DNA of 64,000 nt from Aggregatimonas sangjinii (lineage in GTDB: Bacteria; Bacteroidota; Bacteroidia; Flavobacteriales; Flavobacteriaceae), in the NCBI RefSeq assembly GCF_005943945.1, contig NZ_CP040710.1:445001-509000 (forward strand). Direction: 5' to 3'. Below, piece after piece: positions 56,705 to 61,376 of the stretch; position 1 is the first letter of the stretch; each line of letters opens with the position of its first letter. The notes beneath the pieces are model-generated. The model saw only the letters and a list, made by a program, of their open reading frames with translations, ran no database searches and was not told where the DNA came from. Made by a program: the position numbers and the translations under genes.

Positions 56705-57234
56705 TGAATAAGGTAGTTTATTATGTGGCAAGTTCGCTCGATGGATTTATTTCTGGAGTGAATGGTGATATCAGCAAATTTGAATATCACGATAAAGCAG
56801 TGGAAAAATATCAAGCCGATTTGCTGAATTTCAGTACGGTTATCATGGGGCGAAAAACCTATGAATTCGGATATCAATTCGGGCTTGAACCGGGACAGCC
56901 GGCTTATCCGCACATGGAACACTATATTTTTTCAGAGACCTTACAAATCAAGGCGCTTGACAAGATGGTACATGTTGAAAAAATATCGCTGGAGCGCATC
57001 AAAGAAATAGTAGCTACCGCCAAAACCGATATTTATCTTTGTGGCGGTGGGGAATTTGCGGGCTGGCTTCTTGATAATGGTCTTATCGACCGATTGAAAT
57101 TAAAATTAAACCCTATGGTGCTTGGAGATGGGATTCGGCTGTTTGGCAATTCCAAGACTTCCTTCACAGGTAAACTGATTGAAAAGGAGTCTTTTGATGG
57201 CGGAATTCAATTCTTAACCTACGATTTGAAATAG
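56704..57234 (+). CDS. RibD/dihydrofolate reductase-like protein
   Basis: 176 residues from the ATG that shares a base with the SCO stop; a GTG three bases earlier is possible. MNKVVYYVASSLDGFISGVN and VIMGRKTYEFG, with IYLCGGGEFAGWLLDNGLID, form the RibD C-terminal reductase/DHFR-like fold. This family is present in many bacteria with unclear substrates. It is the last gene of the operon, followed by a hairpin. Confidence 0.9.
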   Translation: MNKVVYYVASSLDGFISGVNGDISKFEYHDKAVEKYQADLLNFSTVIMGRKTYEFGYQFGLEPGQPAYPHMEHYIFSETLQIKALDKMVHVEKISLERIKEIVATAKTDIYLCGGGEFAGWLLDNGLIDRLKLKLNPMVLGDGIRLFGNSKTSFTGKLIEKESFDGGIQFLTYDLK

Positions 57235-57255
57235 AAGCGAACAAATCATTGAAAC

Positions 57256-57295
57256 AAAAACGGGTTAGACTTTGATGAAGGTCTATCCCGTTTTT
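57256..57295 (+). terminator. Terminator of the TPR-SCO-reductase operon
   Basis: AAAAACGGG-T-TAGAC pairs with GTCTA-T-CCCGTTTTT (one T-T mismatch), loop of 10, ending in T5. Twenty-one bases after the stop codon. Confidence 0.85.
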
Positions 57296-57424
57296 GTACT
57301 CCTCGTTACAAAGGATTGGTGCTAAAGGTACTAGTACTTTCTAGATGCTGTCCAACAGATTTTCTTACTATTTTAAAGATACGTAAGGAAGATGGACCTT
57401 TTAGAATCTGTTGGAGATTGACCT

Positions 57425-57443
57425 ACCTGCCGTTTAGGCAGGT
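57425..57443. repeat. Short palindrome ACCTGCC/GGCAGGT
   Basis: A 7-bp stem with loop GTTTA. Its core CCTGCC...GGCAGG equals the hairpin inserted in the tRNA-Val(TAC) copy at 13003-13021, so it may be a member of the same dispersed palindrome family. It lies just past the end of the third small reading frame (minus strand). Confidence 0.6.
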
Positions 57444-57519
57444 TGATGAACCTTTTCATGATGTTGTTTTAATCCTGAGTTCATTTCAGGCCCTGATTGA
57501 TGTATTGTTCAAATCGTGA

Positions 57520-57633
57520 TTAGCGATTAAAATTCCTGTATTGTGCCCATTGCACTCTTTTGCTATGGCTAAAGGATGAAAAGTACTGTCCTGTTCTGGA
57601 CTCCGTTGCTGTTCTGTTGCTAGATGCTTTCAT
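57520..57633 (-). CDS. Small repeated protein A (37 residues, family of three)
   Basis: 37 codons plus TAA. Begins MKASSNRTATESRTGQYF and ends SKRVQWAQYRNFNR. It shares 28 of 37 positions with both other copies (57821-57934 and 58070-58183), all of identical length with common ATG, MKA start, FNR end and TAA. Start is preceded by A-rich sequence (AAAACTAAAAATT) as usual in Bacteroidota translation. The peptide is basic (about +5 net), Ser/Thr/Gln-rich, with aromatic YF, W, Y and F; no signal or membrane span. I do not recognise the family. Confidence 0.6.
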   Translation of the reverse strand: MKASSNRTATESRTGQYFSSFSHSKRVQWAQYRNFNR

Positions 57634-57820
57634 AATTTTTAGTTTTAAAGTGATTTTCTGTTGTTTACTTTTTGGTCGTATAATCTATCGGTCTTCCAAC
57701 CGAAGCCTATGCTAAAATAGATTCTGGGACGCTGTAGATGTAAGGGTAAATGTTCCATGATGTAGTTTTTTTATCCTGAACTTGTTTCAGGATCTGATTG
57801 ATGAATTGTTTAAATCGTGA

Positions 57821-57934
57821 TTAGCGATTGAAGTTCCTGTACTGTGCCCATTGTGCTCTTTTACTATTGCTAAGAGATGAAAAGTACTGTCCTGTTCTTG
57901 ATTCTGTTGCCGTTTTTCTGAATGATGCTTTCAT
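57821..57934 (-). CDS. Small repeated protein B (37 residues, family of three)
   Basis: Begins MKASFRKTATESRTGQYF and ends SKRAQWAQYRNFNR. Same length as copy A and C. Relative to copy A, the invariant residues differ by several synonymous codons (for example ACA/ACG, TCC/TCA, GAG/GAA, AAT/AAC, TTT/TTC), a pattern that fits selection on the protein. Sequence downstream of copies A and B is also repeated (about 75 bases, ATCACGATTT and on, with a hairpin TCCTGAA/TTCAGGA after copy B), so gene plus tail were duplicated. About 190 bases separate it from copy A. Confidence 0.6.
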   Translation of the reverse strand: MKASFRKTATESRTGQYFSSLSNSKRAQWAQYRNFNR

Positions 57935-58069
57935 GATTGTTGTTTTTTTAAATTGTTGTTTTTTATTGATGGTTCAAATATGCTTTGATTTGCTTTGTGG
58001 TCGAAATTTTCATTTCTGAATTGTTGTTTACGAGGTGCAAATTGTAATTATTCGCTTCCAGAACAATTC

Positions 58070-58183
58070 TTATCGATTAAAATTTCTGTATTGTGCCCAT
58101 TGTGCTCTTTTACTACTCTTTAAAGATGAAAAGTATTGTCCGGTCTTAGATTCGGTTGCTGTTCTGTTGTTCGTTGCTTTCAT
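58070..58183 (-). CDS. Small repeated protein C (37 residues, family of three)
   Basis: Begins MKATNNRTATESKTGQYF and ends SKRAQWAQYRNFNR. Most diverged at nucleotide level, yet 28 invariant residues remain across all three copies. It is first in the direction of transcription. The upstream region (58184-58300) contains a hairpin CCCTGAA/TTCAGGG but no exact TAnnTTTG promoter on the minus strand, so transcription is unproven. The opposite strand is also open here but lacks a conserved start and stop. Confidence 0.6.
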   Translation of the reverse strand: MKATNNRTATESKTGQYFSSLKSSKRAQWAQYRNFNR

Positions 58184-58689
58184 GATTTCTAGGTTTTCTC
58201 GCCCTGAACTTTTTTCAGGGACTTTTGATTGTTGTTTCTCAACTGAGGTACAACTAATAGACGAGAGGGTATTAATTTTGTTACAGTACTATGTATAAAA
58301 AGGTACTATATTCTTAAACTTTAACATTTTAAGACACCTAATAGTCTATTATGTAACTGATAATGAGTTTTTTACGTAAATAGTGTATTTTGGGGATTTT
58401 TTTCATTTCCTAGTCTTATACCCATAGGCTGGTTATCCCCCAACCTCTGCGTCCGAGACCTAAAAGCTATATTAAACCGATATGAATTGGCTAGATTAAA
58501 GCATGCTCTAAGTTCGAGAAAGAGTAGGAGATGAGCGGATGTCGCATTCAGACTGATGGGAGAAAATGTGGTTTTCTCAATGGCAAACGACAGCGTCTGA
58601 CCTTTTGAAATCACGACGGAAACTTAAAGATGGGAATATAAAGAAGGACTTCTGGAAAGATAGCCATGCCAGAGGTAAAGGTTAAAACA
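58184..58689. other. 500-base segment with an unidentified, possibly decayed sequence at about 58400-58620
   Basis: 58184-58390 is AT-rich with nothing clear beyond a short hairpin. About 58400-58620 is richer in G+C and reads on the plus strand as a plausible protein fragment (SPNLCVRDLKAILNRYELAR, LKHALSSRKSRR, a TGA stop, then ADVAFRLMGENVVFSMANDS, then another stop). I cannot identify it. It could be a dead gene fragment, the edge of a former insertion, or a structured RNA. Confidence 0.4.
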
Positions 58690-58740
58690 AAACCACCTAT
58701 AAAATGAACACCTTTGAAATGCTCATTTTATAGGTGGTTT
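58690..58740. terminator. Bidirectional terminator after the DUF427 gene
   Basis: An 18-bp perfect stem, AAACCACCTATAAAATGA with TCATTTTATAGGTGGTTT, loop of 15. On the minus strand it is followed by TTTTGTTTTAAC and lies 43 bases after the DUF427 stop; on the plus strand a weaker T-rich tail follows. Confidence 0.85.
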
Positions 58741-58782
58741 GTTATTTCATTTAATAAAAAGGAAGAACTTTTTGCACATAAA

Positions 58783-59064
58783 TTACTTTTCAACGGTGAC
58801 CCCTTTCCAAAAGGCGACCCTGCCTTTGATACCTTTGGCCAGTTCGCTCACCTCAGGATAGTACCACGCTGCATCGGGATTCTGTTTTCCATCTACATTT
58901 AAGGTGTAATAAGACGCAACACCCTTCCAAGGGCAAGTGCTATGGGTTTCACTTTCAGTAAAATATTCTTTCTTAATACTCTCCGCAGGAAAATAATGGT
59001 TGTTTTCGACGACCACCGTGTCGTCGCTCTCTGCGATAACCGCATTGTTCCAAATAGCTTTCAT
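58783..59064 (-). CDS. DUF427 domain protein
   Basis: 93 residues. MKAIWNNAVIAESDDTVVVE, NNHYFPAESI and STCPWKGVASYYTLNVDGK then AAWYYPEVSELAKGIKGRVA match the DUF427 beta-tent domain, including the conserved CPWKG and WYYP. The biochemical role is unknown. It is 126 bases downstream of egtD on the same strand, perhaps part of that transcript. Confidence 0.93.
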   Translation of the reverse strand: MKAIWNNAVIAESDDTVVVENNHYFPAESIKKEYFTESETHSTCPWKGVASYYTLNVDGKQNPDAAWYYPEVSELAKGIKGRVAFWKGVTVEK

Positions 59065-59190: not shown

Positions 59191-60165
59191 TCAATACGCC
59201 TTACGAAGAACATAGTTTTTATACAATTTTTTCGAGTCGGTAAACTCCGTTTCTACCTGAAGCCCGGATTTTTCGGCGAGCCACATTATGATTCTATCGT
59301 CATATTTCTGCGATATTTCGGTATGTATGGTCTCCCATGGTCCGAATTCGGCCTGGAAATCAAGCTTCCCAATCGTAACCGTCTGTTCTTTTTTGGAAAC
59401 CAAGTAGCTTTTAGCGGTGCCCGATTCTGGGTCATATACTTCCCAATGCAAAAATTGGTCTACATCAAAATCGCCACCCAATTCAGCATTGATGCGAGAC
59501 AAAATATTCTTATTGAATGCCGCGGTAATACCGGTCTTATCGTTATAGGCATCCAAGATGGTTTGTGGATTTTTCTTTTGGTCAACGCCCAAAAAGAGCA
59601 AATCTTCCTCCTGCATTAGTGCGCGCACTTGTTTTAAAAATTCAATGGCTTGATCGTGCAACAGGTTGCCGATGTTGGAACCGAGGAATAAGATGACCTT
59701 TCGAGAGGTATTGGAACCGTTAAGCTCGTTCAAGGCCTCGAAATAGGTGCCTTGTTTCGTTTGAATGGGAACATCGGGAAGTTCTTTGGCAAGCGATGCC
59801 TTTAAGCCGTTCAGTACATTCTGGCTGATATCGATAGGCTGGTACGTAAAATCAGCTCCGTTTTGCGAAAGATGGTTTAATAATATTTTGGTCTTCTTGC
59901 CGTCGCCGGCACCCAATTCAATCAAATTAAAATGTCCGCCCTGTTTTCTGAAAAGCGTCGTAATTTCTTCTGTATGGTTCTCAAAAATAGAAAACTCGGC
60001 ATCCGTCAGATAATATTCAGGCATCGCCATGATATCCTGAAAAAGCTTATCGCCCTTTTCATCATAAAAATATTTGGAGGAAAGATGCTTCGGAAAATCG
60101 GTCAAACCCTTATAGACCTCTTCTTCGAAAAGTGTTTCAAATCTAATTGCTGTATGTCTATGCAT
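59191..60165 (-). CDS. egtD: L-histidine N-alpha-methyltransferase EgtD
   Basis: 324 residues. SAM-dependent trimethylation of histidine to hercynine, the first step of ergothioneine synthesis. LIELGAGDGKKTKILLNHL is the SAM motif and PEYYLTDAEFSIFENH is the substrate-side signature of the family. FLGSNIGNL follows. Full length. egtB lies 50 bases upstream on the same strand. The two-gene arrangement without egtA or egtC suggests the short bacterial route. Confidence 0.95.
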   Translation of the reverse strand: MHRHTAIRFETLFEEEVYKGLTDFPKHLSSKYFYDEKGDKLFQDIMAMPEYYLTDAEFSIFENHTEEITTLFRKQGGHFNLIELGAGDGKKTKILLNHLSQNGADFTYQPIDISQNVLNGLKASLAKELPDVPIQTKQGTYFEALNELNGSNTSRKVILFLGSNIGNLLHDQAIEFLKQVRALMQEEDLLFLGVDQKKNPQTILDAYNDKTGITAAFNKNILSRINAELGGDFDVDQFLHWEVYDPESGTAKSYLVSKKEQTVTIGKLDFQAEFGPWETIHTEISQKYDDRIIMWLAEKSGLQVETEFTDSKKLYKNYVLRKAY

Positions 60166-60215
60166 AAAATATAAGTCGTACGTTTTTTATAAAACTATCC
60201 GTTCGCGAATCGCGA

Positions 60216-61376
60216 TTATTTTACCAATCGCAAGCCTGTATATTGCCATCGAAGATCGGTCTGAAAAAAATTGCGGTAAGTGGGCCGCGTATGGTTGATA
60301 GGTGTTGCTACGGAACCGCCCCGAAGCACTTTTTGATTGACCATGAACTTACCGTTGTACTCTCCCAAGGCCCCATCGGCTTTGGTGTAATTGGGGTAAG
60401 GCAGGTAGGCGCTTTCCGTCCACTCCCATCGGCTGCCCCAGGGAAAATACTGCTGTGCTGCTTCCCACTCGAATTCCGTTGGTAGGCGGCATCCTTTCCA
60501 TTGTGCGAAAGCGAAGGCCTCAAAATAGGAAATATGCGTTACTGGAGATTCAGGATGAATAGGTTGCAATCCCTTTAAGGTGTAATGCTGCCAATTTCCA
60601 TCGATACGATGCCAATACAGGGGAGATTCGATTCCATTTTGCTGCACCCAGTCCCAGCCTTCCGCATGCCATAGGTCAAATTTTTGGTATCCGCCGGCGG
60701 TTATAAATTCAATATATTCTTTATTGGTGACCAGTTTGTTGGCGATACTGTACGCATGAAGGTATACCTTATGCCTTCCCAATTCGTTGTCGTAACTGAA
60801 TGTTTCCGAATTATGGCCTATATCATAAACACCTTCTTCCAATGAAACCCAATCTTGGACATGTTTTTCAACTGGATGTTCTTTGAAGGTGTCGGAATAA
60901 ATCGGAAGTAAAGGATTATTCCCAAGAATATATTTGATATCCGTTAACAATAACTCTTGATGCTGTTTTTCATGATGGATACCGATTTCCAGTAAATTCA
61001 ACAATTCTGGGTCATTTTTCTCTTGAAAGAGCGATTTGATGGCCTTGGTTACATAGTCCCGATATTCATACACTTTCTGAACCGATGGCCGGGAAAGATT
61101 ACCTCGGTCAGACCGAACTACACGTTTGCCTACGGTTTCATAGTAACTATTGAAGACAAAGGAAAAATCGGTATCGAAAACACGATAGCTCGTCGCGTGG
61201 GGTTCCAAAATAAATTGCTCGAAAAACCAAGTGGAATGGCCCAAATGCCATTTCGGCGGGGAAACATCTATAATGGGCTGTACTACATAATCCTCGATTT
61301 CCAAAGGTTCGCAGAGGGTCTCGGTATGTTTTCGGGTTTCCAAAAAGAAATCCAATAGGGAATCGGTAAGAATCAT
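60216..61376 (-). CDS. egtB: Ergothioneine sulfoxide synthase EgtB
   Basis: 386 residues. Iron enzyme joining hercynine with a thiol donor and oxygen. N-terminal DinB_2 domain: HLGHSTWFFEQFIL and HHEKQHQELLLTDI provide the three iron-binding histidines; C-terminal FGE-sulfatase domain: THISYFEAFAFAQWKGCRLP, TEFEWEAAQQYFPWG and VLRGGSVATPINHTR. Ends YTGLRLVK as is usual. Lacking egtA/egtC here, cysteine itself may be the thiol donor, but that is inference. An OvoA (ovothiol) identity is less likely because egtD is adjacent. Confidence 0.93.
   Translation of the reverse strand: MILTDSLLDFFLETRKHTETLCEPLEIEDYVVQPIIDVSPPKWHLGHSTWFFEQFILEPHATSYRVFDTDFSFVFNSYYETVGKRVVRSDRGNLSRPSVQKVYEYRDYVTKAIKSLFQEKNDPELLNLLEIGIHHEKQHQELLLTDIKYILGNNPLLPIYSDTFKEHPVEKHVQDWVSLEEGVYDIGHNSETFSYDNELGRHKVYLHAYSIANKLVTNKEYIEFITAGGYQKFDLWHAEGWDWVQQNGIESPLYWHRIDGNWQHYTLKGLQPIHPESPVTHISYFEAFAFAQWKGCRLPTEFEWEAAQQYFPWGSRWEWTESAYLPYPNYTKADGALGEYNGKFMVNQKVLRGGSVATPINHTRPTYRNFFQTDLRWQYTGLRLVK

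Follow-up and report, generated by a model that had tools for sequence, protein, structure and literature searches.

Tandem operons of tiny basic proteins with a shared ECF-like promoter motif in Flavobacteriaceae

Short ORFs arrayed in tandem in Aggregatimonas sangjinii belong to a conserved family of tiny basic proteins found in Flavobacteriaceae. Comparison between genomes shows that these arrays have a recurring layout and that their promoter motif was found in the host genome only ahead of its two arrays. We give about an even chance to the explanation that these are operons of tiny basic proteins switched on under stress by an ECF-type sigma factor together with an AGTAC-binding regulator, amplified in dosage by their tandem copies and acting by binding a partner.

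In the 64,000-nucleotide stretch of DNA that was analysed (positions 445,001 to 509,000 of contig NZ_CP040710.1; hereafter the window), the array is placed between a RibD_C-domain gene, which ends at 57234, and a DUF427 gene, which starts at 58783. It contains three minus-strand ORFs encoding the core small protein, at 58070-58183 (first in the operon), 57821-57934 (second copy) and 57520-57633 (third copy). Each starts with ATG, reads 37 codons and ends with TAA; all three products have MKA as N terminus and QWAQYRNFNR as C terminus, and the ORFs are 79-83% identical at the nucleotide level. These positions and translations match those given in the initial annotation, and recomputing its counts gave the same values, with 28 of the 37 residues identical across the three copies and synonymous differences in 13 of those 28 codons. 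Its view that the ORFs are too regular for chance also holds, since the host genome (4.72 Mb) contains six copies in two arrays, three in the window and three at 4,389,101-4,389,638, and matches were found in 9/9 other genomes of the genus searched, with 2-9 matches (E ≤ 1) in each, mostly in tandem. Our analysis adds to that description a promoter, a terminator-like hairpin, an ORF of a second family (family B), a truncated tail, the second array and a spread across the Flavobacteriaceae.

The strand had been left as a question, which we addressed by computing pN/pS on each strand. The window's three copies alone are undecided, with a pN/pS of 0.192 in the minus-strand frame vs 0.159 in the antisense phase that shares its wobble positions. 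Extending the comparison to 47 distinct core copies, drawn from ten genomes of the genus, gave a pN/pS of 0.178 (pS 0.63) in the minus-strand frame and of 0.270 in the antisense phase, which is interrupted by in-frame stops in 15 of the 47 copies. On both counts the answer is the minus strand, and coding on the opposite strand was ruled out. Because the 47 copies were gathered as open frames, the absence of stops from their sense frame is by construction; in an independent count, from a search reading through stops in the host and its congeners, 1 of 48 matches at E ≤ 1e-10 has an in-frame stop. Similarly, 197 distinct copies were gathered as open ATG frames and have a start and a stop by construction, which does not apply to their length, and 165 of them are exactly 37 aa. 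Homologues without conserved start and stop codons, which the initial annotation had named as the sign of a non-coding repeat, are thus not what these counts reveal. Adenine is common in the start context of the 197 copies: 88-95% have it at -11 to -13, 81% at -3 and 64% at -6. Adenine at those upstream positions boosts translation in F. johnsoniae, according to PMC6847099. Judged by their base composition, the start contexts are of the kind that favours translation, as in well-translated flavobacterial mRNAs. The substitution pattern shows the array ORFs to be protein-coding genes under purifying selection, and the 47 distinct homologous copies support the original reading of a conserved minus-strand small-protein family.

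Among the loci collected there are 74 distinct arrays, 59 with at least two copies and 15 with a lone copy, some of them interrupted by contig ends. The usual array has one to four core copies, with the consensus MKASxxKTATESKTGQYFSSFxxSKRxQWAQYRNFNR, and in many cases ends with one divergent tail ORF of the pattern MKTFINQSPTESRRF...SKRIRW, while some arrays have no recognisable tail; spacers are mostly ~40 nt or ~135 nt. Tails are less constrained than core copies (pN/pS 0.529 over 13 copies). Core copies are more alike within arrays (median pS 0.27, 108 pairs) than between arrays (0.60), consistent with recent duplication or conversion. In the window, sequence comparison identifies a truncated tail copy of 28 codons on the minus strand (57373-57459), a decayed relative of the array-ending tail ORF, and a profile match at 502331-502420 of the host genome (57331-57420 of the window) has two stops (E = 1.2e-4). 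Between copies 2 and 3 lies a 37-aa ORF of the unrelated family B, MEHLPLHLQRPRIYFSIGFGWKTDRLYDQKVNNRKSL (57645-57758, minus strand), of which the collected loci hold 18 distinct copies with a pN/pS of 0.338 over an ungapped core of their alignment. Members of family B (HLQRPKIYFRIGFGWNTDR, 37-42 aa) occur in some arrays within the leader or a spacer; the family is unrelated in sequence to the core small protein and is coding by pN/pS.

The spacers carry signals of their own. The 135-nt spacer between copies 1 and 2 (57935-58069, minus strand) has ACAATT at 58040-58045 and again at 58019-58024, a repeat distance of 21 bp, together with GCATATTTG, a candidate second promoter. Inspection by eye places a block of such ACAATT repeats followed by GCATnTTTG in 15 of the 19 spacers that are 110-190 nt long, one genome contributing three of these, and the block is possibly a second promoter inside the arrays; the window's copy is degenerate, and a search with the block consensus has no match in the host genome at ≤3 mismatches. 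The direct repeat is suggestive of LytTR sites; with this host-genome search empty, a LytTR-type repeat remains a lead. A CCTGAA-N5-TTCAGG hairpin occurs in another spacer (57775-57791, minus strand), with a one-mismatch relative at 58203-58219. At ≤2 mismatches the genome has 10 matches to it (reversed control 3), three of which are inside the two arrays, including 4389228-4389244. After the last ORF, on the minus strand at 57254-57297, comes an intrinsic-terminator-like hairpin, GGGATAGACCTTCATCAAAGTCTAACCC followed by a T run, with 20-nt arms that are 90% complementary; the stretch around it (57245-57305) folds with z = -4.6 vs shuffles. This hairpin was not listed by a scan with a simple terminator consensus, and similar hairpins come after many arrays.

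Upstream of the first copy, on the minus strand at 58279-58308, is the promoter element TAGTACCTTTTTATACATAGTACTGTAACA, in which two AGTAC half-sites 17 bp apart lead into a -35-like TGTAAC (58280-58285). A -10-like CGTCTA of ECF-sigma type (58258-58263, minus strand) follows 16 nt past TGTAAC. ECF-sigma promoters combine an AAC-type -35 box with a CGTC-type -10 box, with about 16 nt between them, and the 16-nt gap from TGTAAC to CGTC is found in 92 of 98 distinct sites, so that the array sites have this form; conservation covers both AGTAC half-sites as well. By its likeness to such promoters, TGTAAC-N16-CGTC would be an ECF-sigma-type promoter. Allowing ≤3 mismatches, the motif has two sites in the 4.72 Mb of the host genome, one ahead of each array, and the reversed control has none. 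The looser pattern TGTAACA-N12-17-CGTCTA has three sites, with one control match; two of these belong to the arrays; the third, L190, has no ORF >60 aa that begins within 1 kb downstream and was dismissed. In some genomes (L054, L078 and L134) the place of the AGTAC promoter is taken by another leader that they have in common, about CCTTTGTACCAACAAAA...TTATAACGAACA.

At ≤1 mismatch the promoter motif was detected in 123 of 397 sampled Flavobacteriaceae genomes, and the reversed control gave one match. Among 30 loci found by motif DNA alone (L139-L168), tiny ORFs lie downstream in 30/30, mostly in tandem. On the same strand downstream, 29 of the 30 have a member of either the 37-aa profile or the profile of a 28-aa class, the best match being to the 37-aa class in 8 and to the 28-aa class in 21. 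The 21 are partly by construction, because those loci supplied most of the 28-aa profile; the 37-aa profile predates the motif loci, and one (G034) of its 8 matched genomes contributed to it. At the 30th locus (L165, the same site as L181) there are three 29-aa ORFs in tandem as well as one of 44 aa. Another 20 loci were picked by hand (L169-L188), of which 18 match, L178 (281 bases) and L186 weakly; L180 and L181 have no profile match, yet carry tiny basic ORFs.

In other genera, operons behind the same promoter encode one to three 28-aa proteins (e.g., MRTLNNNQLTGTLNGTKSNQWNTKRRYR) with the pattern MRTLNNNQ...WNTKRRYR, in many cases followed by a 43-48-aa ORF. Constraint on the 28-aa class is weaker than on the 37-aa core (pN/pS 0.479). 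The 37-aa profile (E ≤ 0.001) matches 57 and the 28-aa profile (E ≤ 0.01) 140 of the 397 sampled genomes; either class is present in 187 and both in 10. Either class was found in 112 of 123 motif-positive vs 75 of 274 motif-negative genomes, and when the 37 genomes that supplied profile loci or were inspected during profile building are excluded, the counts are 75/86 vs 75/274 (Fisher p about 1.5e-23). The motif at ≤1 mismatch is absent from 12 of the 57 genomes with the 37-aa class and 64 of the 140 with the 28-aa class. Comparing the two classes by hhalign gave a probability of 27%, and comparing the tail with the 28-aa class 3.8%. A gene starting like MRHSKLVPEVNAGSMADIAFLLLIFFLVTATI, presumably ExbD-like, comes after the 28-aa operons at L141-L143, L147-L149, L153, L160, L163, L171, L174, L183, L185 and L187. 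The exact QWAQYRNFN-coding pattern was found in 40 stretches, from Maribacter, Arenibacter, Pricia, Pelagihabitans, Kriegella, Pseudozobellia, Ulvibacterium, Croceitalea and uncultured organisms. Beyond Flavobacteriaceae no convincing member turned up. In a phylum sample of 296 genomes, the 37-aa profile gave three matches, all in Flavobacteriaceae; in the search described above that reads through stops, two of 23 genomes from other families matched, with E values of 0.09 and 0.2 that we take as chance. The 28-aa profile had 0/295 matches in a class sample that includes some Flavobacteriaceae and holds no positive control.

The 37-aa proteins have a charge of +5.6 to +6.5, a pI of 11.1-11.5 and a GRAVY of -1.30 to -1.45, which makes them strongly hydrophilic. 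An alignment of 42 members shows no variation at M1 and R26 and almost none at T10, E11, S12, K25 and W29. AlphaFold predicts one helix over residues 9-35, with a pLDDT of about 80 over residues 21-37, in a model that is weak overall (pLDDT 70, pTM 0.32). An argument from an amphipathic helix was abandoned, helix amphipathicity being no higher than for shuffled sequence. In Pfam, no family was returned for any of the three window proteins (E ≤ 10), and a scan of 39 proteins of the 28-aa class (E ≤ 1) gave a single match, to MobC (E 0.11), attributed to chance; 42 members searched against PHROGs touched four families with one member each (best E 0.042), again chance, and neither NCBIfam nor PDB gave a match beyond chance. 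From these properties we favour a non-enzymatic binder made in bulk under a specific stress. In the mechanism that we propose, an alternative (ECF-type) sigma factor and an AGTAC-binding regulator would turn the operon on under some stress, and tandem copies would increase the dose. The product, predicted to be a short, positively charged helix in which one arginine is invariant and one tryptophan nearly so, would act by binding a larger partner and not as an enzyme. RNA, a sensor protein, polymerase and the ribosome are candidate partners. In other genera, the 28-aa WNTKRRYR operons may be the functional equivalent.

A different explanation, which we regard as unlikely, is that the transcript acts mainly as RNA, either as a tandem small regulatory RNA or as a dual-function RNA, and that the ORFs are secondary. 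The array is intergenic and tandem, with its own promoter and a terminator-like end, like many bacterial sRNAs, and both the leader (z -3.1) and the stretch 57300-57519 (z -2.7) fold somewhat better than shuffles. The three window ORFs, however, show no excess of structure (z -0.1 to +1.8), and residues are kept while synonymous sites vary widely, as the pS given above indicates. Rfam has no match at gathering score in the array, its matches at E ≤ 1 lying outside it at 58645-58775 and far below gathering; with no Rfam family and ORFs that fold no better than shuffles, a structured RNA was rejected.

There is a rather small probability that the products are exported multi-copy peptides, either leaderless bacteriocin-like or signalling. 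Leaderless bacteriocins are encoded by multi-copy, tandem short ORFs whose products are cationic and contain Trp, and the array ORFs are likewise tandem, short, cationic and Trp-containing. Among 30 neighbours scanned, several of which have no family, none was recognisable as an ABC exporter or an immunity gene, which would set most arrays apart from leaderless bacteriocins; an EamA-family transporter gene does recur at one common position (7/25 loci). The strong hydrophilicity of the products and a helix amphipathicity not beyond chance also argue against export, as does the QWAQYRNFN end, which is conserved across several genera. Most rivalry peptides are not known to have such cross-genus conservation.

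Concerning the neighbourhood of the arrays, the positions of neighbouring genes are common within the genus and no common function was seen. Two array positions are common to most congeners, and one of them, which adjoins VTC, DUF4956 and DUF2490 genes, is also found in another genus (flanks of L035-L055). An element that maintains itself by copying, whether selfish or toxin-antitoxin-like, is quite improbable. It would be multi-copy, as the family is, and the host genome's two arrays are located elsewhere, amid genes that do not cluster with the genes flanking the congeners' arrays. Such an element is, on the other hand, hard to reconcile with array positions held in common by most congeners and in one case by another genus (L055), and with a strongly hydrophilic product, type I toxins not being known for strong hydrophilicity. 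A mobile origin was rejected, as tblastn of one copy at E ≤ 1 found no match in phages or plasmids and the exact QWAQYRNFN-coding pattern is absent from viral contigs. Leader peptides controlling a downstream gene by attenuation would account for short ORFs between a promoter and a hairpin, but are very improbable because the hairpin stands after the last ORF and the downstream gene differs between the common congener positions and the host genome.

The preferred explanation, a stress-switched operon whose products bind a partner, can be set against known systems. One is DUF1127 (PF06568). Proteins of this type (YjiS and CcaF1) are often <50 aa, basic and arginine-rich, often with several per genome, and mainly alpha- and gammaproteobacterial; they are reported to bind proteins and, for CcaF1, also RNA, as described in PMC12501420. 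The window family is similarly small, basic, arginine-rich and multi-copy (37 aa, charge +5.6 to +6.5), but neither the three window proteins nor the 39 members of the 28-aa class match the Pfam model, and the carriers are Flavobacteriaceae. The F. psychrophilum motif SM6 (PMC9723704) has a conserved CGT box in its -10 region, which its authors read as ECF-type, and serves a number of genes, type IX secretion components among them. The array promoter shares the CGT box at -10 with SM6 as described there, and differs by adding AGTAC half-sites and TGTAAC and in that its motif was found in the host genome only ahead of the two arrays.

In the open-access literature (PMC) no description of the family was found. 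The core family, its companion ORFs and the dedicated promoter are thus absent from the libraries and open-access papers searched; this newness concerns the family and its proposed regulon, not a demonstrated mechanism. Genes for small basic proteins are as such already known. A broader proposal, a little short of even in our estimation, is that this is a hitherto undescribed stress regulon of Flavobacteriaceae with a promoter mainly or solely for tandem operons of 28-37-aa proteins with an aromatic/arginine end, and that these small proteins act in a new way on a core machine of the cell. The genes are below the usual annotation size, yet either class occurs in almost half of the sampled genomes (187/397) of a family that is important in marine and freshwater life. 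The restriction of the host-genome motif to array promoters offers a route, via the sigma factor and the regulator, to the inducing condition. Should a core machine prove to be their partner, the proteins would be a compact regulator with many natural variants for comparison. Elsewhere in the window, at 59191-61376, a histidine-specific methyltransferase gene lies beside a gene with an FGE-sulfatase domain (Pfam), presumably an ergothioneine-type pair.
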